A stretch of 50,705 nucleotides of DNA, taken from Bacteroidales bacterium (GTDB lineage Bacteria; Bacteroidota; Bacteroidia; Bacteroidales; VadinHA17). This document shows, piece after piece, positions 21,476-36,488 of the stretch (the first letter of the stretch is position 1; the number at the start of each line of letters is the position of its first letter). Where the stretch lies: the NCBI GenBank assembly GCA_025358645.1, contig JANYIW010000241.1, positions 1 through 50,705 of the forward strand, in the 5' to 3' direction. A program made the position numbers and the translations under genes. The notes under the pieces were generated by a model. The model did not search any database, had not been told where the DNA came from, and saw nothing but the letters and a program-made list of their open reading frames with translations.

Positions 21476-21548
21476 TTAATTTTCCAATCAGGTGAAAAGG
21501 GAGGGCAACGCGGTCCTTCCTTTTCTTTTTATTCATTATCTTGTGGTT

Positions 21549-23510
21549 ATGAAATATAAAATATCCCCGCTCTCTTATTTCATATTTTTCTTAGGTATCC
21601 TGTCATGTGGGAAAGATTCCCCCCAGAATAAGAATGGGGGAATGATCCAGCTAATAAGCGTTAAGATTGGTACTTCCACTCTGAACGTCAATAGCACAAT
21701 AAATAACGTACCCAATGATCAACCCTTTCAGATTGCGTTCGCTGGTGCGGTGGATACCAATTCCATTATTAAGGGGATTACCCTTCAAAATTTTAAAGGG
21801 ACCGCGATTGCTTATTCCTATGCTTCGATAAACAATTCCACTGCTCTCACCTTGACTACAACAGCCAGCCTGCAGTATTCCACCGATTATACCCTGGCAA
21901 TTTCCTCCGCGTTACGAGGTTTGAACGGGGAGACTTTTCCAGGAATCCAATTTAAGTTTACAACTCTTGCAGGTTCTATGGTGATTGATTCAATCAGTCT
22001 CAATGGAAAAACTATGTCAACTTCCCCGTTACAAAACATTGACCCTAAAAAAATCAACATAAGGATAAACTTTTCCCAGGCCCTGGATCCCGCCAATTAC
22101 AAATCGTTATTTTCATTCACAGGACCTCTCTTATCCTTTACTCTATCTAACGACAACAAAACACTTCTGGTTAACAATACCGTAAAGGCAAAAGGTCTTG
22201 TCAGGTATTCATTTTCCATTTCCTCTGCGTTGACCTCGGCTGGAGGGTTTTCCTTCGGAGGTTTTTCTTCTGATTTTTATACAGCGATCGATACCACCTA
22301 TCAATACACAAAGATATCGGATGATGATCTTTTAACACTGATACAGCGACAAACCTTTAAATATTTCTGGGATTTTGGCCATCCTTCGTGCGGTATGGCG
22401 CGTGAACGGAATTCTTCGGGCGATATCGTTACCACGGGAGGCTCAGGATTTGGCATTATGGCCATGATTGTGGCCATAGAAAGAGGATTCATTTCAAGGA
22501 CGGATGGCATTACCCGGTTAAAGAAAATCCTTGGCTTTTTAGAAACTTGCGATCGTTTTCGTGGTGTCTGGCCACACTGGTTAAACGGCGTAACGGGAAA
22601 AACGCAGCCGTTTAGTGCAAAAGACAACGGAGGAGACATCGTGGAAACCTCCTTTATGATCCAGGGTCTGCTTTGCATGAGACAATACCTTGATCCCACC
22701 GTACCAATAGAGAAAACAGAAATCGATCGAATCAATAAATTATATAATTCTATCGAATTTGATTGGTTTACAAATGGTGAAAAAACACTCTACTGGGGAT
22801 GGTCGCCTGATTTTGGGTACAACCTTAAAATTCAGGGCTACAACGAGACACTGATCACATACCTCATAGCCGCTTCTTCTCCGACACATTCCATTACAGC
22901 GGATGTCTATACGAACGGATATGCAAATAACGGAGGAATAAGAAACGGAAGAAGCTATTATGGATATCTCTTACCTTTAGGAGCAGACTATGGAGGACCT
23001 TTGTTTTTTACCCAATATTCATTTATGGGACTTGATCCCCGGCGCCTCAAAGACCAATATGCTGATTATTGGGAACAAAATGTGAATCAATCTCTGATAA
23101 ATTGGAACTATTGTATTGCAAATCCTAAAAAATATCCGGGTTATAGTTCCGCGGTCTGGGGGTTGACTGCTTCCGACAATCCATGGGGATATAATGCACA
23201 CTCTCCAACCAATGACCTTGGAGTGATCACACCTACAGCTGCCATTTCTTCTATTGCCTATACACCCACACAATCGTTGAACGCATTGAAAACGGATTAC
23301 TATTTTCTTGGTGATCGTCTATGGGGAGATTATGGCTTTTACGATGCTTTTGATGTAACAGCAGGCTGGTGGGCAAACTCTACCCTGGCCATCGACCAGG
23401 GGCCAATTATTTGCATGATTGAAAACTACAGAACAGGTCTGCTATGGAATTTATTTATGTCAGCTCCTGAAATACGTACCGGCTTAACAAAACTTGGCTT
23501 CACCTATTGA
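21549..23510 (+). CDS. Ig-like domains plus GH144/glycoamylase-like (PF10091) lipoprotein enzyme
   Basis: 653 residues from ATG 21549. The frame opens at 21492, but the later ATG leads directly into a lipoprotein signal (FFLGILSCGKD). Two SbsA-like Ig domains (about 30-140 and 143-245) precede the catalytic domain starting near KISDDDLLTLIQRQTFKYFW. Family motifs include SGFGIMAMIVAIERGFI, FRGVWPHWLNGVTGKT, KDNGGDIVETSFMIQGLL, YGFYDAFD and AIDQGPIICMIENYRTGLLW. The family contains endo-beta-1,2-glucanases (GH144), so cleavage of beta-1,2-glucan at the surface is the best guess. It is paralogous to the next gene, which lacks the Ig domains. Confidence 0.88.
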   Translation: MKYKISPLSYFIFFLGILSCGKDSPQNKNGGMIQLISVKIGTSTLNVNSTINNVPNDQPFQIAFAGAVDTNSIIKGITLQNFKGTAIAYSYASINNSTALTLTTTASLQYSTDYTLAISSALRGLNGETFPGIQFKFTTLAGSMVIDSISLNGKTMSTSPLQNIDPKKINIRINFSQALDPANYKSLFSFTGPLLSFTLSNDNKTLLVNNTVKAKGLVRYSFSISSALTSAGGFSFGGFSSDFYTAIDTTYQYTKISDDDLLTLIQRQTFKYFWDFGHPSCGMARERNSSGDIVTTGGSGFGIMAMIVAIERGFISRTDGITRLKKILGFLETCDRFRGVWPHWLNGVTGKTQPFSAKDNGGDIVETSFMIQGLLCMRQYLDPTVPIEKTEIDRINKLYNSIEFDWFTNGEKTLYWGWSPDFGYNLKIQGYNETLITYLIAASSPTHSITADVYTNGYANNGGIRNGRSYYGYLLPLGADYGGPLFFTQYSFMGLDPRRLKDQYADYWEQNVNQSLINWNYCIANPKKYPGYSSAVWGLTASDNPWGYNAHSPTNDLGVITPTAAISSIAYTPTQSLNALKTDYYFLGDRLWGDYGFYDAFDVTAGWWANSTLAIDQGPIICMIENYRTGLLWNLFMSAPEIRTGLTKLGFTY

Positions 23511-23515
23511 AAACA

Positions 23516-24880
23516 ATGAAAAATCTCAGGTTATATACTCTGTTCGCTCTGATTGTATTTAGTGTTAACTGTTGTGTCGGTAACAAGGATAAAACAACAG
23601 GTAAAAATAGTTTATCAGAGTTTAAAAAGATATCAGATGATTCACTGCTCACACTGGTTCAATACAGAACATTCCAGTACTTCTGGGATGGAGCTGAACC
23701 TAATTCAGGGATGGCTCGCGAACGATTTCATGTTGATGGAATATATCCTGAAAATGACATGAACGTTGTTACATCGGGAGGCAGCGGTTTTGGTCTGATG
23801 GCAATTCTTGTAGGTATTGAAAGAGGTTTCATTACGCGGGACGAAGCAGCTGATCGTTTTTCAAGAATTATAGAATTCCTTAAACATGCCGACAGGTTTC
23901 ATGGCGCCTGGCCGCATTGGATTTATGGTGAAACCGGGAAAGTAAAACCCTTTAGTCCAAAAGATAATGGTGCAGATATTGTTGAGACAGCCTACCTGAT
24001 GCAGGGTTTGCTCACTGTAAGACAGTATTTTATAAATGGATCTGAACAGGAAAAGTTACTCGCGTCAGAAATAGAAAAATTATGGAAAGAAGTTGAATGG
24101 ACCTGGTTTACAAAAGGCGGAGAGAATGTATTGTACTGGCACTGGTCGCCCAATTATAGATGGGAAATGAATTTTGCAGTCAAAGGTTATAACGAATGTC
24201 TTATACTATATATATTAGCTGCATCTTCACCAACCTATCCTATCCGGCCAGAAGTTTATCATGAGGGGTGGGCAAGATCGGGTGCAATAAGTACTCACAG
24301 CAGTAAATATGGGTATAGCCTTGCTCTCAAACATAATGATGCGGAGGATTATGGCGGACCACTATTCTGGGCTCATTATTCATATCTTGGATTAGATCCC
24401 CGTTTCCTGAAGGACAAATATGCAGACTATTGGCAGGAGAATAAAAATCAGACTTTCATTAACTGGAAATGGTGTGCGCAGAATCCCAAGAAATTTGCTG
24501 GTTACAGTGAGGATTGCTGGGGACTTTCTGCAAGCTATTCAATGAAAGGTTATGCAGCTCATGCTCCCGGTGAAACCAACGACCTGGGAGTCATCACTCC
24601 GTCAGCTGCTCTCTCGTCCTTCCCGTATACCCCGGAGCAATCAATGAATGCCATGAAACATTTTTATTATAATCTTGGAAACAAAATATGGGGCGAATAT
24701 GGATTCTATGATGCTTTCAGTGATCAGAATAATTGGTATCCACAGAGATACCTGGCTATTGATCAGGGTCCGGTTGTTATTATGATAGAAAATTACAGAA
24801 CGGGATTACTCTGGAATCTGTTTATGTCCTGTGATGATATTCAAAATGGATTGAAACTTCTTGGTTTTATATCCGATTGA
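23516..24880 (+). CDS. GH144/glycoamylase-like (PF10091) lipoprotein enzyme, second copy
   Basis: 454 residues from ATG 23516; the frame also opens at a TTG (23507) overlapping the previous stop. Signal peptide with lipobox-like SVNCCVGNK. The catalytic domain spans almost the whole protein with the same motifs as its neighbour: FQYFWDGAEPNSGMARERF, GSGFGLMAILVGIERGFI, FHGAWPHWIYGETGKV, KDNGADIVETAYLMQGLL, YGFYDAFSDQNNW and AIDQGPVVIMIENYRTGLLW. Probably a beta-1,2-glucan hydrolase of GH144. The 5-nt gap puts it in the same operon. Different anchoring or domain dress may place the two copies on different sides of the outer membrane. Confidence 0.88.
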   Translation: MKNLRLYTLFALIVFSVNCCVGNKDKTTGKNSLSEFKKISDDSLLTLVQYRTFQYFWDGAEPNSGMARERFHVDGIYPENDMNVVTSGGSGFGLMAILVGIERGFITRDEAADRFSRIIEFLKHADRFHGAWPHWIYGETGKVKPFSPKDNGADIVETAYLMQGLLTVRQYFINGSEQEKLLASEIEKLWKEVEWTWFTKGGENVLYWHWSPNYRWEMNFAVKGYNECLILYILAASSPTYPIRPEVYHEGWARSGAISTHSSKYGYSLALKHNDAEDYGGPLFWAHYSYLGLDPRFLKDKYADYWQENKNQTFINWKWCAQNPKKFAGYSEDCWGLSASYSMKGYAAHAPGETNDLGVITPSAALSSFPYTPEQSMNAMKHFYYNLGNKIWGEYGFYDAFSDQNNWYPQRYLAIDQGPVVIMIENYRTGLLWNLFMSCDDIQNGLKLLGFISD

Positions 24881-24974: not shown

Positions 24975-25004
24975 TTGTTATGTTCCATAATTTTAATATA
25001 TTCG
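24975..25004 (+). promoter_or_regulatory. Candidate promoter of the AAKP-tail lipoprotein
   Basis: TTG (24975-24977), 19-nt spacer and TATATTCG (24997-25004, 7 of 8 to TAnnTTTG). It would give a leader of about 75 nt before the ATG at 25086. Confidence 0.4.
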
Positions 25005-25085: not shown

Positions 25086-25796
25086 ATGAAGAACAAAGTT
25101 TTAATGGGATTAGCAGCTATAGCTATGGTTGCCGTCCTTTCTAGTTGTGGTAAAAAACCACAAGTTGAAATTGATGCAACAAATGCAGCTATCGCATCTG
25201 CCCAGACTGCTGAAGCAGCTGTTTATGTACCCGCTGAATTTGCAGCTGTACAGGATTCAATGAAAGCTATAATGGCTGACGTTACGACTCAGGAATCAAA
25301 ATTATTTAAGAAATTTGGCCCTGCAAAAGCTAAACTTGCTACTACCTTAACTCTTGCAAACAAGGTAGCTAGTGATGCTATCGCTAAGAAAGAAGAAGTT
25401 AAAAAAGAGTTTGAAACTACAATGTCAGCTGTTAAAGCAGTTATTGTAGAAAACAAAACCCTTATTACAAAAGCTCCAAGGGGAAAAGAAGGAGCAGCTG
25501 TTCTTGAGCAGATTAAAACTGAAATGGCCACGACTGAAACTTCTGTTGCTGAAGCACAAGGTCTGTATGATAAAGGTTCATTCATGGAAGCTCTTAATAA
25601 AGTTAAAGCTGCAAATGCAAGTGCAACCGGTATCAATACCGAACTTAAAGATGCTATCGCTAAAGTAAAAGGAAAAGGCAAAGCAGTAGCTGCACCAGCA
25701 GCTAAACCAGCAGCTAAACCGGCAGCTAAAGCAGCAGTTAAACCAGCAGCTAAACCAGCAGCTAAACCAGCCGCCGCAGCTCCTAAGAAAAAATAA
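25086..25796 (+). CDS. Coiled-coil lipoprotein with AAKP-repeat, lysine-terminated tail
   Basis: The frame is open from 24861, but ATG 25086 opens directly into a lipoprotein signal peptide (MKNKVLMGLAAIAMVAVLSSCGKK, Cys about 20), giving 236 residues. The mature body (about 25-195) is almost wholly helical, rich in Ala, Lys and Glu, and looks like a coiled coil. The last about 35 residues are a low-complexity tail of AAKP units ending PKKK, resembling a histone H1 tail and also a Braun-lipoprotein-style lysine end. A strong terminator follows, then a run of L,D-transpeptidase genes. The family is not recognised. A structural link between outer membrane and peptidoglycan is an inference discussed in the findings. 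Confidence 0.8.
   Translation: MKNKVLMGLAAIAMVAVLSSCGKKPQVEIDATNAAIASAQTAEAAVYVPAEFAAVQDSMKAIMADVTTQESKLFKKFGPAKAKLATTLTLANKVASDAIAKKEEVKKEFETTMSAVKAVIVENKTLITKAPRGKEGAAVLEQIKTEMATTETSVAEAQGLYDKGSFMEALNKVKAANASATGINTELKDAIAKVKGKGKAVAAPAAKPAAKPAAKAAVKPAAKPAAKPAAAAPKKK
25698..25769 (+). repeat. Six in-frame 12-bp repeats (AAKP units)
   Basis: Unit GCAGCTAAACCA occurs six times head to tail within the lipoprotein gene: three perfect copies and three with single- or double-base changes (CCG at 25719-25721, GCA at 25731-25733, GTT at 25737-25739). Because units are 12 bp, slippage would change tail length by four residues without a frameshift. Confidence 0.9.
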
Positions 25797-25821
25797 TTAA
25801 TAAGTATTAGCTTATTTATAT

Positions 25822-25853
25822 AAAACCCCCGGGAATTTCCCGGGGTTTTTTTT
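25822..25853 (+). terminator. Intrinsic terminator after the lipoprotein gene
   Basis: CCCCGGG (25827-25833), loop AATTT, CCCGGGG (25839-25845), followed by eight T. It separates the lipoprotein gene from the L,D-transpeptidase run, so the latter depends on read-through or on its own promoter. Confidence 0.92.
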
Positions 25854-25872
25854 AAAGTCATCACAGGTTTAC

Positions 25873-26985
25873 ATGAGAAAGGTTTGGAGAGATGTGCTGA
25901 TTTTTTCTGCAATTGCAGTTTCTATTCCATTAGTTATCTTATTATTAATCCGTTTTACACCTCAACCACCTACTGGGGAAATGGAACATGCCAGGGAAAC
26001 TCTTTCTAAGGCAGGAAAAAATAAAGCCGATACATATTCTAAAAAGCTCTTTACTGAAGCAAAGATCTTCTATGATTCTGCTATGGTAAACTGGGAGAAA
26101 GAAAATTATAGATTTCTTTATTTCAGACATTATGACAGGGTTGTCATGTTTGCAAATCTCTCTGTGAAAAAAGCAAACCAGGCTGATGATAACTCAGTCA
26201 GCAGTTCATCGAACCTTAAAATTAAACTCCTTCAAAAAATTGAGTTTCTTAACGATCTGGTAAAGCAGATTGATAAACTTTTCACTACTTATCCTTTAAC
26301 TTCAGAAGTACGTAACCGCATATCGAAAGGAAAGATTTTGTTAATAGAGGCTGAGATAATATATAATAAGGGTCAGTATCTCCAGGCTAACAGAAAAATT
26401 ACTGATTCCGAGTATCTGCTAACAGGATCATACGAAAATGCATCTGCCAACCTTAAAAACTATTTCAAATCATTTCCAGTATGGAAAAGATGGGTTGACT
26501 TAACTTTAAATAATTCGAAAAAAAGTCGTGATTATTCAATAATTATTGATAAATTTTCAAGAAAATGTTTTATTTATCTTAATGGGACCAGAAAATATGA
26601 ATTTGAAGCCGAACTGGGGAAAAACTGGGTCGGAGACAAAAGAGTAAAAGGTGACATGGCTACTCCGGAAGGCATGTATAAGATTACGAGAAAGTTCGAC
26701 GGAGGTAAAACTAAGTACTACAAAGCTCTTTTACTCGACTATCCGAATGATGAAGATAGAGCAAAATTCAGATCTGACATAGAACATGGTTCTCTTCCCG
26801 CATCGTCGCAAATTGGAGGGTTAATAGAAATCCATGGTAACGGCGGGAAAGGAATTGACTGGACAGAAGGGTGTATTGCTCTTACTGATAGCGAGATGGA
26901 TGTTGTATTCAAGATTGTGAAAGTTGGTACTCCAGTCACTATCATCGGATCTATGGTCGACCTGAAAGATGTTGTGGACAAGTAA
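25873..26985 (+). CDS. L,D-transpeptidase (YkuD), membrane-anchored
   Basis: 370 residues. An N-terminal membrane segment (about 11-29, IAVSIPLVILLLIRF) is followed by a helical periplasmic region (about 35-215) and a C-terminal YkuD domain (about 220-365). The catalytic motif is present: IEIHGNGGKGIDWTEGCIAL, with His and the nucleophilic Cys. The family makes 3-3 crosslinks in peptidoglycan or attaches proteins to diaminopimelate through a lysine amine. It lies 20 nt after the terminator of the lysine-tailed lipoprotein gene and 10 nt before the second YkuD gene. No signal cleavage site was seen, so it probably stays in the inner membrane facing the periplasm. Confidence 0.92.
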   Translation: MRKVWRDVLIFSAIAVSIPLVILLLIRFTPQPPTGEMEHARETLSKAGKNKADTYSKKLFTEAKIFYDSAMVNWEKENYRFLYFRHYDRVVMFANLSVKKANQADDNSVSSSSNLKIKLLQKIEFLNDLVKQIDKLFTTYPLTSEVRNRISKGKILLIEAEIIYNKGQYLQANRKITDSEYLLTGSYENASANLKNYFKSFPVWKRWVDLTLNNSKKSRDYSIIIDKFSRKCFIYLNGTRKYEFEAELGKNWVGDKRVKGDMATPEGMYKITRKFDGGKTKYYKALLLDYPNDEDRAKFRSDIEHGSLPASSQIGGLIEIHGNGGKGIDWTEGCIALTDSEMDVVFKIVKVGTPVTIIGSMVDLKDVVDK

Positions 26986-26995
26986 ATTATCTGAT

Positions 26996-27763
26996 ATGAA
27001 AAACAAGAAGATAATACATGATGGTGCACAGCCTGAGATTGAAAAACCTACAGCTGAAGCTAATCGCATTAATAATGAGAGCAAACCATTTCTTAAGGTT
27101 GTCAGGATTTTATTTATAATCATTTGTTCAATTCTGGTTCCTCTATCCTTGATTCTTTTTATCCTTTTAGTTGTTCCGGTTCTGAAGGAGTTTGCACCCC
27201 TGCAAAAAACCGGAATTGCAAATATTAAAGATTTAAAGAAAGATCAGAACTACAAAAAGCAAATAGGTCTGCTAACGAAAGATATTCAACGACTCTCTCT
27301 GAAAGTTAATGCTTATACTTCAGGCCAATCTTATATTGTAGTCAATACAACTGAAAACAAGTTCTACCTTTACACAAATAAAAAGCTTGTAAGAGAAGGA
27401 TTTTGCAGTTCAGGGAGCTATACGATGCTTCAGACATCAGGCAATAAAAAATGGGTTTTTAAAACACCCAAAGGTAAATACTGGATACGCGGCAAAACAA
27501 CAAATCCGGTCTGGAAAAGACCAGACTGGTCATTCGTTGAAGAGGGTTCCCCTATTCCACCTAAAGATGACTTTTCAAGATATGAGTATGGCGTGTTAGG
27601 CGATTACGCACTTGCAATAGGAGATGGATACCTGATTCATGGTACTATTTATAAGCGCTTTCTTGGTATGCCTGTCACACATGGCTGTGTCAGGTTGAAT
27701 GATGAAGATCTGAAAGTGATCTTCAATACACTGAATATTGGTTCTAAAGTTTATATTTTCTGA
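26996..27763 (+). CDS. L,D-transpeptidase (YkuD), second copy
   Basis: 255 residues from ATG 26996; a frame opening at 26969 would overlap the previous gene. A cytoplasmic N-terminus of about 35 residues precedes one membrane helix (VRILFIIICSILVPLSLILF). The YkuD domain starts at SYIVVNTTENKFYLYTNKK and has a conserved FKTPKGKYWI segment. The catalytic motifs are YLIHGTIYKRF and PVTHGCVRLNDEDL, with His and Cys intact. The insertion between them (WKRPDWSFVEEGSPIPPKDD) is typical of the ErfK-like branch. Part of a three-gene run with short gaps. Confidence 0.93.
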   Translation: MKNKKIIHDGAQPEIEKPTAEANRINNESKPFLKVVRILFIIICSILVPLSLILFILLVVPVLKEFAPLQKTGIANIKDLKKDQNYKKQIGLLTKDIQRLSLKVNAYTSGQSYIVVNTTENKFYLYTNKKLVREGFCSSGSYTMLQTSGNKKWVFKTPKGKYWIRGKTTNPVWKRPDWSFVEEGSPIPPKDDFSRYEYGVLGDYALAIGDGYLIHGTIYKRFLGMPVTHGCVRLNDEDLKVIFNTLNIGSKVYIF

Positions 27764-27781
27764 TCTGATCGAAAAAGTAAT

Positions 27782-28579
27782 ATGGAAACCGAAATTAAGA
27801 ATAAACCTCACCGGAAAATTACTTTCGTAATACTAATCAGCCTGATATCGGTGTTCCTTATTTATTATTCCGTAATGTGTATGATTAGCCCTATTCGGAA
27901 ACTGGAAGAGATAAAAAATGAATACAGAGCTAAAACCTCTAAGAAAAGTGATGTTGACCAACGGATATTGATGGATACAGCCTACCTTAAGTTATTGAAA
28001 GATAAGGCTACTCTTCAGTCAAGAATTGTGATGGCAGAAACTGATTCAATTTACCTCACTATAAATATGGCGGACAATTCTGCTAATCTTGAAATAAGCG
28101 GGGTAGTTGTTCATAAAGCAAAAATGAGCAAAGTGCAAACCAGCAAGATTCTTTTGGAAGGAGATGATAATACAATATTATCAATACTTGCAACTCCGCT
28201 TACTATATCTCATGCCTTTGCTACAATAAAGAAGGAACCTCTGATGATCAAGATGGCGCCTAAAGATACTTCGGAGTATAAACCTGATATTATGCCGGAT
28301 ACATCAATTGCTGAGCCTGTTAATTATATTCTTGAAACGAGCGGGGGAATAAGAATCTATGTATATCAGGATGAAAATGCGCGAATCAATGAAAAGACAA
28401 GTCAATTCCGTTTTGATATAAATGATCGTATTAGAGATACCTGGAGTGCATTAAAAAGAGTTGCTGTATTAAAAGTACCTGAATATCATCCATTTATAAA
28501 AATCAGACTTCCACGTACCGATGCCAAAATCATATTCAGAGCTCTTCCAAAGAATGGACAGATAGCGGTTTTCAGCTAA
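27782..28579 (+). CDS. Membrane protein, probable inactive L,D-transpeptidase paralogue
   Basis: 265 residues: cytoplasmic N-terminus, one membrane helix (ITFVILISLISVFLIYYSV) and a periplasmic domain. By eye it follows the order of the preceding YkuD protein. DSIYLTINMADNSANLEISG matches QSYIVVNTTENKFYLYTNKK, MAPKDTSEYK matches IPPKDDFSRYE, and IKIRLPRTDAKIIFRAL matches HGCVRLNDEDLKVIFNTL. The catalytic His and Cys motifs are replaced (IYVYQD and IKIRL), so it appears to be a pseudoenzyme. The gap to the previous gene is 18 nt. It could be a regulator, scaffold or partner of the two active enzymes; this is inference. Confidence 0.7.
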   Translation: METEIKNKPHRKITFVILISLISVFLIYYSVMCMISPIRKLEEIKNEYRAKTSKKSDVDQRILMDTAYLKLLKDKATLQSRIVMAETDSIYLTINMADNSANLEISGVVVHKAKMSKVQTSKILLEGDDNTILSILATPLTISHAFATIKKEPLMIKMAPKDTSEYKPDIMPDTSIAEPVNYILETSGGIRIYVYQDENARINEKTSQFRFDINDRIRDTWSALKRVAVLKVPEYHPFIKIRLPRTDAKIIFRALPKNGQIAVFS

Positions 28580-33968: not shown

Positions 33969-36488
33969 CTATTGAGTCATCAAAAGGTAAAGGTTTCTGA
34001 TAAAAGCATCTTCAAATCCCAACTTCTTTATTGATGCTAAAGCTTTTTTTGCCTCTAAAAGAGTATGGAATTCGCCATAATAATATTTATAAAGTCCGTC
34101 TGTGCCCCTTATTTCATTCACTCCTTCAAGTCCACTGAAGATTATTTTAAAATTCAATGAATTTTTTGAGGCTCTAAGTTGTATTGTGAGTGCTTTCTGA
34201 TCAATCCGTGTTAGTGCTGTTTTTTTTTGTTTCGGATTTATTATAGTCTTTGATTCATTCTCCAGTTCATACTGGTTCAATAGATAAGCTTTATCAAATC
34301 CTTTTTCTATGACATACCCGAGATACTTCATCGCGTCAAATTTGTTATAAAAAACACCGAGTGCATACATGGAAATTGAATCAGCTTTAATCGTTCTTAT
34401 AAAGAATAAATCATCTTTGGTTAATGCGGAAAAATAGCCCGGTTTAAGTTTCTTACTTGTTTTTAACAGGACAATGCTGTATCTCATTGAAAATGGCTGT
34501 CTGAGGTGTTCCGGTGTATAGGTTTCTTTTCGGATAACTATTCCCGTTTTAGGATCAACAATCCCAAATGTAACCCTTCTGTTATATTTTCTTCCTTCAG
34601 GGTTATCAGAACCGTCATGGTTACTGTTAACTGCAACAAAATCAGATTTCCCGAATGCTCTCTTCACAAATCTTGAAGGTGCAGTTCCAGCTGTTGAAAG
34701 GTAATTTATTACAGTTTGAGCCCTTTTGTCAGCCAGCGCCCTGTTATATTCTTTACCACCTTTTCCATCAGTATAGCCTGCAACTTCAACATTCAATTCA
34801 GGATAAGATATAAGGATGGATTTTAGATTTTCCAGCTCTGATTTAGCCTGTTCATTGAGTTCATAATTATCGAAATCAAACAATACATTATTTATTGATA
34901 AAAATTCACCACCGGAAACCTTATCAGGTAACAGGGTGGAACTAACGGATATATAGTTTCCTGAATAATACAAAGGAATACTCAGGTTAATCGTATCGGT
35001 TTTATATCCGGTATGGTTAACAAAAAGCCGATAGTCTCCAGGTTTAATTTCGAATTTATATGTTACTGAATCGACCAGGGATATATTTTTCAGAATAATA
35101 CTGTCCTTAAGGTTGACGAGCCGAATCTGGATTTGTGTAGGATCAATTGCCATTCCATCAAGCAGGGCAATTGTGCCTATGGCTAAAGTTATCTTATCAG
35201 CCGGGTTTTCTGCGACTATTGAATAAATGTTTCGTGATTTGCTGTTTTCGTCATACAGACTGGTAATAAATCCGGGTTTATTGTTGTTAAGAATAAAGAA
35301 AGTGTTTTCTAAAGCATTGTTAAAAGCATAAGGCATACCTATGGGGTTGGTCCAGGACCCATTTTTCTTTATTGATCTGAATACATCATAACCCCCCATA
35401 CTGGTGTGTCCTACTGAGCTGAAAAGTAAAGCGCCGGTTTCCTGATCAAAGAAAGGCGTATCCTCGTTGTAAGGTGTATTAATAATATTCCCGCAATTTA
35501 TTGGTTCACCCCATTTACCAGCAACAGTCTTTTCCGAATACCAGATATCAAGTTGACCCTCACCACCTGGTTTATTACTGGAAAAGTACATCGTCTTACC
35601 ATCAGGTGTTATAAAACCATGCGACTGCCAATAAATAGAATTTATGGGTTTCCCTACACTTTTTATCTTTGACCATACTGAATCTTTTCTCTGACTGTAA
35701 TACAGGTTTCCGTCACCGCCATCATCCATATAGATTATCAATAATTTTCCATCTCCTGTAATCGAGTTTGAATAGAACCTGTTAAATCCTCCAAGTTGCC
35801 TGGTAATATCTACAGGTTTTTTCCATGTACCTGATTTATAAGAGCAAAATATATGTGTTTTTTCGTTTTCTTTTTGAGTGAAGATAAAAACGGAATCATT
35901 TTTTGATAGAACCGGATTACATGCTCCGGGATAATTGATGAGCCAGTCTGCGAAAAGGTTCAAGATCAGGGTCAAAGGTTTCTTCTTCATTACAATTGCA
36001 TACATGCAATCTCTTATCTGGGTATCAATATATTCATCCTTGAAGATCTTAGTGCCACTCAATCTTTTCTTTGCATCATAATAAAGTGTAATGGCTTTTT
36101 CCAGGCTATCGCTATGATGATATGCTATAGCGAGGTAGAGATATGTATCCAAAGGCGCTCGTTCTCCGTATTCCAGGTATTCCTTGTCATTGCTTACTAC
36201 ATTCAGGGATGCTTTTGTTAATAGTTGCAGGGCCTCAGTCTTTTTCCCATCAAGATTCAGGTAGCATATTCCCAACTTTGCATTTAGATTGGAGTTTTCA
36301 GGATATTTATTAAGAAGGGACTTGTACAGGTCGGAAGCCTTCGCATAATTCTGATCATAATAGTAATAAATATCAGCTTCCTGAACTTCTTTAATAAATG
36401 CCTTTTTGGTAATTACTTGTGAAGACAGAGTAAGGAAGCAAAAAAAAAGTAAAGTGAGTATGGTGGTTTTTCTGATTACCTTTTTCAT
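33969..36488 (-). CDS. TPR + PD40 propeller + carboxypeptidase-regulatory-like + OmpA_C + SPOR-like protein (PorE-like)
   Basis: 839 residues: signal peptide (1-23); TPR region (about 30-170); PD40/WD40-like propeller (about 185-420; YFSSNKPGGEGQLDIWYS, FSSVGHTSMGGYDVFRS); carboxypeptidase-regulatory-like beta domain (about 435-510); and OmpA C-terminal domain (about 530-645; NVLFDFDNYELNEQAK, VEVAGYTDGKGG, ADKRAQTVINYL) with the Asp and Arg expected to bind diaminopimelate. Two SPOR-like repeats end the protein. The first four modules match P. gingivalis PorE, a type IX secretion accessory that anchors to peptidoglycan; the SPOR-like ends are additional. The start overlaps the upstream gene's stop by 1 nt, so translation is probably coupled. 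Periplasmic, likely outer-membrane-associated. Confidence 0.88.
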   Translation of the reverse strand: MKKVIRKTTILTLLFFCFLTLSSQVITKKAFIKEVQEADIYYYYDQNYAKASDLYKSLLNKYPENSNLNAKLGICYLNLDGKKTEALQLLTKASLNVVSNDKEYLEYGERAPLDTYLYLAIAYHHSDSLEKAITLYYDAKKRLSGTKIFKDEYIDTQIRDCMYAIVMKKKPLTLILNLFADWLINYPGACNPVLSKNDSVFIFTQKENEKTHIFCSYKSGTWKKPVDITRQLGGFNRFYSNSITGDGKLLIIYMDDGGDGNLYYSQRKDSVWSKIKSVGKPINSIYWQSHGFITPDGKTMYFSSNKPGGEGQLDIWYSEKTVAGKWGEPINCGNIINTPYNEDTPFFDQETGALLFSSVGHTSMGGYDVFRSIKKNGSWTNPIGMPYAFNNALENTFFILNNNKPGFITSLYDENSKSRNIYSIVAENPADKITLAIGTIALLDGMAIDPTQIQIRLVNLKDSIILKNISLVDSVTYKFEIKPGDYRLFVNHTGYKTDTINLSIPLYYSGNYISVSSTLLPDKVSGGEFLSINNVLFDFDNYELNEQAKSELENLKSILISYPELNVEVAGYTDGKGGKEYNRALADKRAQTVINYLSTAGTAPSRFVKRAFGKSDFVAVNSNHDGSDNPEGRKYNRRVTFGIVDPKTGIVIRKETYTPEHLRQPFSMRYSIVLLKTSKKLKPGYFSALTKDDLFFIRTIKADSISMYALGVFYNKFDAMKYLGYVIEKGFDKAYLLNQYELENESKTIINPKQKKTALTRIDQKALTIQLRASKNSLNFKIIFSGLEGVNEIRGTDGLYKYYYGEFHTLLEAKKALASIKKLGFEDAFIRNLYLLMTQ

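Follow-up and report, generated by a model that had tools for sequence, protein, structure and literature searches.

The window analyzed here is a 50,705-nucleotide stretch from a Bacteroidales bacterium (contig JANYIW010000241.1 of assembly GCA_025358645.1) that carries four consecutive genes encoding a lipoprotein (LP), two membrane-anchored YkuD proteins (LDT1 and LDT2) and a third membrane-anchored protein, P3, with a probable YkuD fold (Table 1). The four genes recur together in related genomes, and profile comparison identifies LP as a homolog of the helical stalk of LDT1. An initial annotation of the region had described a lipoprotein ending in PKKK, a terminator, two YkuD proteins with intact histidine and cysteine motifs and another protein related to them, the whole set lying on a single strand. 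This description holds: open reading frame (ORF) calls, the hairpin, the PF03734 matches and the P3 model agree with it, and H321 and C334 of LDT1 are present in 73 of 73 aligned rows, H215 and C231 of LDT2 in 38 of 38. The terminator between LP and LDT1 has an 8-bp stem without mismatch, seven of its pairs being G-C, followed by T8. LDT2 probably starts at 26996 rather than at 26969, the start of the longest frame, because many relatives begin LDT2 9-10 nt past the LDT1 stop; LDT2 residue numbers count from 26996.

Table 1. Features of the LP-LDT1-LDT2-P3 locus in window coordinates
Feature	Position	Strand	Basis
Candidate promoter TTG-N19-TATATTCG, upstream of LP	24975..25004	+	Pattern match in the window
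LP, lipoprotein, 236 aa	25086..25796	+	ORF call; sequence start MKNKVLMGLAAIAMVAVLSSCGKK, 3' end AAAPKKK-TAA
LP loop A-P131-R-G133-K134-E-G136	25473..25493	+	Alignment of 90 rows; joins helices 78-129 and 134-162 (AlphaFold model)
12-bp tandem repeat, 6.5 copies, coding for most of the Pro-Ala-Lys tail	25694..25771	+	Repeat analysis, inside the LP gene
Intrinsic terminator CCCCGGGA-ATT-TCCCGGGG-T8 in the LP/LDT1 spacer	25827..25853	+	Hairpin 25827-25845, then T8
LDT1, membrane-anchored YkuD protein, 370 aa, YafK/DpaA/Csd6-like catalytic domain	25873..26985	+	PF03734, E = 1.5e-16
LDT1 stalk (residues 33-204), helical, homologous to the LP rod	25969..26484	+	hhalign, LDT1 profile searches
LDT2, membrane-anchored YkuD protein of L,D-transpeptidase type	26996..27763 (alternative start 26969)	+	PF03734, E = 5.7e-21; HGC-x-R
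P3, membrane-anchored, probable YkuD-fold pseudoenzyme without active-site motif	27782..28579	+	AlphaFold model, Foldseek

Residue counts refer to alignments built on 76 named LP loci. The LP alignment comprises the window and 71 of these loci (L135, L149, L155, L161 and L165, incomplete or split, were omitted) and was extended from 72 to 90 rows with 18 of 20 further loci, leaving out L180, which has no LP, and L186, where LP is partial. The LDT1 alignment holds the window and 72 of the 76 loci (omitting L098, L117, L121 and L149), the LDT2 alignment the window and 37 loci chosen from 73, and the P3 alignment the window and 71 loci. Rows are partly non-independent, since the alignments include near-identical sequences and several named loci duplicate contigs that occur elsewhere in the sets.

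Conservation of gene content and order supports LP, LDT1, LDT2 and P3 as one unit. Among 60 related genomes, the window's own included, LP was found in 36 and a strong LDT1 match (E at most 9.1e-78) in the same 36; two further genomes gave weak LDT1 matches to the catalytic domain only. LP is fragmentary in three genomes of this set (G019, G021 and G034) and sits at the end of a different contig in G031; neither LP nor LDT1 was picked up in G030 and G032, which are 77-78% complete. A survey of 247 genomes of the order, again including the window's own, found LP in 27. Full-length LDT1 (E at most 5.5e-112) was found in exactly these genomes, and LP adjoins LDT1 by coordinates in every one; the four-gene order was read in 16 of them and LP-LDT1 adjacency only in the other 11. 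Downstream of LP on the same strand, the 76 named loci carry LDT1 in 75, LDT2 in 74 and P3 in 73 cases, the incomplete loci L098, L149 and L152 lying at contig ends. Nineteen of the 20 further stretches contain all four genes and the remaining one, L180, has no LP. In 296 genomes from across the phylum, queried with LDT1 and not with LP, seven besides the window's own gave long LDT1 matches (E of 7.8e-57 or better); none of the seven belongs to the window's class, and each has the four genes in identical order, P3 being weak in two. Their LPs form one group on the LP tree, and the genomes may belong to one class or several. Synteny of LP with the YkuD genes in relatives had been set beforehand as a check on the initial annotation, and both the 27 adjacent pairs and the seven conserved orders outside the class bear it out. 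Genome-wide LDT1 searches scored the best eight (order) or best six (phylum) first-look candidates per genome.

Most named loci come from Bacteroidales metagenome genomes, L168, L171 and L172 being Maribellus records not marked as metagenome-assembled. Named strains with the cassette include Maribellus luteus. In the window's genome, which is 98% complete in 414 contigs, the only two YkuD matches are those of the cassette. Exactly two were found in 14 of the order's 27 cassette genomes and three to five in 13, and at least one match is present in 84 of the 220 genomes without the cassette (111 of 247 overall). Several genes, namely LDT1 in L117 and L121, LP in L161 and L165 and LDT2 in L116, are split over two frames or give partial matches in single assemblies, reflecting sequencing error or decay. 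L104 has a gap of 485 nt between LDT1 and LDT2, compared with about 10 nt or an overlap in most other loci.

LP is predicted to be a rod of nearly constant length with an invariant lysine close to one end. Residues 1-20 form the signal peptide and Cys21 the lipid site, as read from the lipobox SSC-GKK. The AlphaFold model (mean predicted local distance difference test score, pLDDT, 81; predicted template modelling score, pTM, 0.66; ten-residue block means of 83-98 over residues 21-190) contains helices at 26-41, 49-70, 78-129, 134-162 and 166-196, with the tail disordered from residue 199. From this we infer a rod of about 8 nm (a longest helix of 52 residues at 1.5 Å per residue) with loop 130-133 and the tail at the non-lipid end. 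Cys21 and K193 are 173 residues apart, both included, in 78 of 90 LPs and 174-175 in the other 12; the sequence beyond K193 is variable. Met1 aside, Cys21, Pro25, Pro131, Gly133 and Lys134 are invariant in all 90 rows. Lys134 is also kept in all seven LPs from outside the window's class, which are arginine-rich and have 4-7 lysines each.

Known families give LP no clear relatives. Pfam and NCBIfam searches returned only sub-cut-off matches for LP and P3. DUF4398 (PF14346) matched 12 of 72 LP members weakly (best E 8.9e-4) and two LPs from outside the class (E of 0.0025 and 7.9e-5), at bit scores of 18.7 and 23.5 that both lie under the curated gathering cut-off of 27.9; the window LP has no listed DUF4398 match even at E = 1. 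The best sequence match of LP to a solved structure has an E of 0.086. In Foldseek, the LP model has as its top fold match the N-terminal domain of Borrelia BB0323 (probability 0.98), a protein linked in the available text of PMC5462797 to outer-membrane stability and cell fission; because the fold match has a non-significant E of 0.27, BB0323 is only a lead. Neither a cassette nor a sequence relation was seen for it.

LP is related at the profile level to the stalk of its downstream neighbor. hhalign aligns LP residues 13-179 with LDT1 residues 21-182 (probability 96.5, E = 9.1e-10, 160 columns; 94.3 with the first alignments), compared with a probability of 0.8 for LP and LDT2. In the order survey, 20 matches of the LDT1 profile were limited to its N-terminal part. 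Nineteen of these are cassette LPs (best E 1.6e-16), from 19 of the 27 genomes with a cassette, and in the phylum survey all seven such matches are LPs. Conversely, the LP profile matches the LDT1 stalk in G172 (E = 6.5e-11) and G029 (E = 5.3e-9). LP and LDT1 therefore appear to contain related spacers, attached to a lipid in the former and to a catalytic domain in the latter. The stalk is 172 residues long in 71 of 73 LDT1 proteins and follows an N-terminal membrane helix read from the sequence. Outside cassettes, the LDT1 profile gave catalytic-domain matches in the order plus a single stalk match in G257, the only stalk relative outside a cassette in these searches. This is a lone 121-aa membrane protein (L180, 4999-5364, minus strand, E = 2.2e-10) beside a sensor-kinase gene, and the fetched stretch contains no YkuD or LP match near it.

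The two YkuD enzymes carry different active-site signatures. Both exceed the curated cut-off of PF03734. The best NCBIfam model for LDT1 is LdtF/DpaA (E = 1.4e-9), at 37.4 bits against an equivalog cut-off of 365, which marks LDT1 by sequence as the same type of protein and a different enzyme. Its motif, H321...W-T-E-G-C334, is of the YafK type, unlike the classical SHGC of LDT2, and the position two residues past the cysteine is alanine in 72 of 73 rows and serine in one. The closest solved relatives of LDT1 are 7o21, 6xj6/6xj7 (Pgp2), 8ikr, which we take to be DpaA, and 4xzz (Csd6). The available text of PMC10653827 identifies 7o21 as Bd1075. LDT1 is related to these hydrolases in its catalytic domain, with the alanine placed as in DpaA, and differs from YafK/DpaA, Csd6, Pgp2 and Bd1075 in its N-terminal membrane anchor and helical stalk. 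LDT2 has the motif H215...T-H-G-C231, with H229, G230, C231 and R233 in 38 of 38 rows, arginine thus being invariant at the second position after the cysteine. The same pattern, alanine in LDT1 and arginine in LDT2, holds in 19 of 19 further cassettes. According to excerpts of PMC8263019 and PMC10653827, DpaA-like proteins and LD-carboxypeptidases do not have the transpeptidase arginine, and DpaA-like proteins mostly have alanine or asparagine two residues past the catalytic cysteine (PMC8263019). LDT2 alone of the pair thus looks like a transpeptidase, because LDT1 has the DpaA-type alanine and no transpeptidase arginine; LDT1 carries the YafK/DpaA/Csd6 hydrolase signature and is predicted to be an amidase or carboxypeptidase.

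P3 looks like a YkuD fold without an active site. It has no Pfam match over cut-off, and the H...GC motif is absent from all 72 P3 rows. Its AlphaFold model (pLDDT 84) has B. subtilis YkuD as the top Foldseek match (probability 1.00), with L,D-transpeptidases in nearly all listed rows, and hhalign relates P3 to LDT2 with a probability of 54.8 (E = 1.2e-4).

Expression signals indicate that the four genes are probably one transcription unit in which the terminator keeps LP in excess. Terminator-like hairpins within 120 nt 3' of the gene were found in 47 of 71 loci for LP, in none of 72 for either LDT1 or LDT2 and in one of 70 for P3; one mononucleotide shuffle of each set gave none. The pattern TTG-N17-24-TANNTT[TC]G, presumably the Bacteroidota promoter consensus, occurs in 43 of 70 loci within the 250 nt preceding LP, compared with 4 of 70 mononucleotide shuffles, and in none of 59 LP-LDT1 spacers, a shorter target (under 100 nt, median 76 nt). 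A stricter pattern was found upstream of LP in 3 of 70 loci. The second box by itself occurs there in 42 of 70, compared with 17 after shuffling, and in 5 of 59 spacers. The terminator is conserved and the promoter-like site was found only before LP; the terminator therefore probably sets the excess of LP. The initial annotation had counted the terminator against a link between LP and the YkuD genes. The terminator itself stands, as a conserved feature, and the objection is weakened by a promoter pattern that lies before LP and not in the spacers.

Based on these observations, we propose that LP is a dedicated membrane-to-wall spacer encoded with its own writer, eraser and pseudoenzyme, resembling E. 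coli Lpp in use and not in sequence or in attachment via a C-terminal lysine. We give this proposal an even chance of being correct. LP would be a periplasm-facing rod of fixed length (ca. 173 residues) with the lipid at one end and, at the far end, the invariant loop PRG-Lys134-EG as well as a tail that is mostly basic and varies between orthologs. The LDT1 stalk would hold its catalytic domain off the inner membrane, and since LP is related to that stalk, both would reach the peptidoglycan layer with their functional end. LP would be made in excess because a partly obeyed terminator follows it, LDT1, LDT2 and P3 being expressed by read-through. LDT2, of transpeptidase type, and LDT1, of hydrolase type, would then build and edit the peptide bonds that the LP tip joins or sits on, and P3, a dead YkuD protein, may hold or regulate the complex. 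To our knowledge, little is known about how the outer membrane is attached to the wall in Bacteroidota without Braun's lipoprotein. Because the candidate substrate, writer, eraser and pseudoenzyme are encoded by neighboring genes, and named strains have them too, the question can be tested directly.

A number of observations weigh against this proposal. The outer-membrane location of LP is read from its lipobox, and its contact with peptidoglycan is a prediction. Rod geometry was taken from the helix lengths of the model, which has a pTM of 0.66. Lys134 is not the sole conserved lysine, K102 being kept in 89 of 90 LPs and K193 in 94%. The window's own LP is not among the LP genes matched by the LDT1 profile. 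Since LDT2 is matched as well by ElsL, an LD-carboxypeptidase model (E = 6.1e-6), its label of transpeptidase depends on the arginine signature. For P3, the best Foldseek E is 1.9e-3, with template modelling scores of 0.27-0.43 at the top and no match at 0.001 or better; hhalign relates it to LDT1 with a probability of only 8.5, and 28 of 72 rows have some cysteine after residue 85. The strict terminator scan was negative after LP in 24 of 71 loci, and the promoter pattern is support and not proof because the targets differ in length and the loci are related. LP was not found in 220 of the 247 genomes of the order, so the cassette is not needed in general, and the window's genome has ten OmpA-domain matches, nine of them over cut-off, which implies that other wall anchors exist. 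By codon usage LP ranks 9 of 33, which does not mark it as abundant, and ribosomal genes were no outliers either; codon usage was set aside as an uninformative indicator that neither supports nor contradicts an excess of LP.

The main rival to the spacer proposal is a non-covalent scaffold or activator. Here the LP rod would pair with the LDT1 stalk across the periplasm and gather LDT1, LDT2 and P3 for making or trimming 3-3 cross-links, without ever being joined to the wall. The homology of LP to the LDT1 stalk fits such pairing, the probable pseudo-YkuD protein P3 suggests a regulated complex, and NlpI, described in the accessible literature as an outer-membrane lipoprotein gathering wall enzymes, offers a precedent that counts against a wall-joined spacer. 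An excess of LP, as the conserved terminator would produce, is unlike what a one-to-one complex suggests, and the invariant tip lysine would need another role. We consider a scaffold possible and lean against it.

In its most explicit form, the spacer proposal describes a reversible wall tether of Bacteroidota in which LDT2 would join LP to peptidoglycan through the internal Lys134 at the rod tip, LDT1, with the same rod and a YkuD hydrolase domain, would release it, and P3 would control the exchange. In this full detail it is unlikely to be correct. Lysines other than the last residue have a precedent as wall links, since LimB of Coxiella and Lpg1810 of Legionella are outer-membrane proteins joined to diaminopimelate via non-terminal lysines according to the available text of PMC8263019 and PMC11841132; no dedicated enzyme cassette is mentioned for them in these excerpts. 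The move from the C-terminal lysine to Lys134 shows experimenters which peptide to seek.

The C-terminus of LP argues against attachment in the manner of Lpp. The initial annotation had cast LP as a possible substrate of the neighboring YkuD enzymes, by analogy with the C-terminal lysine of Lpp. Partnership is favored by the gene linkage; the lysine has lost its place as its basis. The last residue in the 90 orthologs is lysine in 42, arginine in 22, phenylalanine in 15, serine in 6 and isoleucine in 5, making it basic in 64 of 90, and the 74 complete genes from the 76 named loci end in lysine (35), arginine (19), phenylalanine (16) or isoleucine (4). The last ten residues contain no lysine in 4 of 90 LPs, and a quick tree requires at least 13 changes between lysine and other residues at the C-terminus, seven of them forced by starred branches. 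The long Pro-Ala-Lys (PAAK) tail is missing from most listed orthologs and reflects a lineage-specific 12-bp repeat. Genome G017, a close relative whose LP is 96% identical across residues 1-203, has almost none of this repeat. Conservation of the terminal lysines had also been set beforehand as a check on the initial annotation, and here the outcome goes against it. A terminal-lysine tether is thus ruled out as a general mechanism by the 42 of 90 count and the 13 tree changes. On sequence grounds this excludes the Lpp mechanism as a family-wide rule; tethering as such may still occur, since LimB and Lpg1810 use other lysines.

A true Lpp analogue, attached via its C-terminal lysine by the neighboring L,D-transpeptidases, is accordingly very unlikely. 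Its linkage to YkuD genes, the KKK end of the window LP and the single C-terminal lysine found necessary and sufficient for attachment of Dickeya OutB (PMC12274547, in the excerpts available) favor it, and beyond the lysine counts it is opposed by the missing transpeptidase arginine of LDT1 and by the LPP family (PF04728), which has no match in the window LP up to E = 1, is not among the 25 of 109 families listed for the 72 LP orthologs and was not found in the window's own genome, the E. coli control being positive. Compared with the E. coli set of Lpp, LdtA/B/C and DpaA, the cassette shares a helical-rod lipoprotein, here with a basic end, and the presence of transpeptidase-type and DpaA-like YkuD enzymes in one organism. 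It differs in the length of the mature lipoprotein (ca. 216 aa, compared with 58 for Lpp), in the non-conserved terminal lysine, in the clustering of its genes, in its extra probable pseudo-YkuD protein and in the rod common to LP and LDT1. In open-access literature, subscription papers and preprints being outside the search, no paper was recognised as describing an LP-LDT1-LDT2-P3 cassette.

Least probable of all is a reading in which the role of the YkuD genes is limited to making and trimming 3-3 cross-links, the most common products of L,D-transpeptidases in the available text of a review (PMC12729407), and an unrelated LP, set apart by the terminator, is kept upstream for its promoter, given that LP is homologous to the LDT1 stalk, was never found without LDT1 where both were sought (in the named loci only at a contig end) and stays with the other three genes as outside neighbors change.

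Genes flanking the cassette fall into 23 clusters in 51 upstream loci and 14 clusters in 46 downstream loci. The commonest downstream neighbor, in 25 of 46 loci, is the transporter also seen in the window. Directly upstream of LP, the window has a tandem pair of genes (21492-24880) for secreted proteins whose sequences are visibly alike, with homologs in the upstream flanks of 11 of 51 relatives. One of the ten OmpA-domain matches of the genome also lies in the window, at 34611-34883 on the minus strand within an 857-aa frame.

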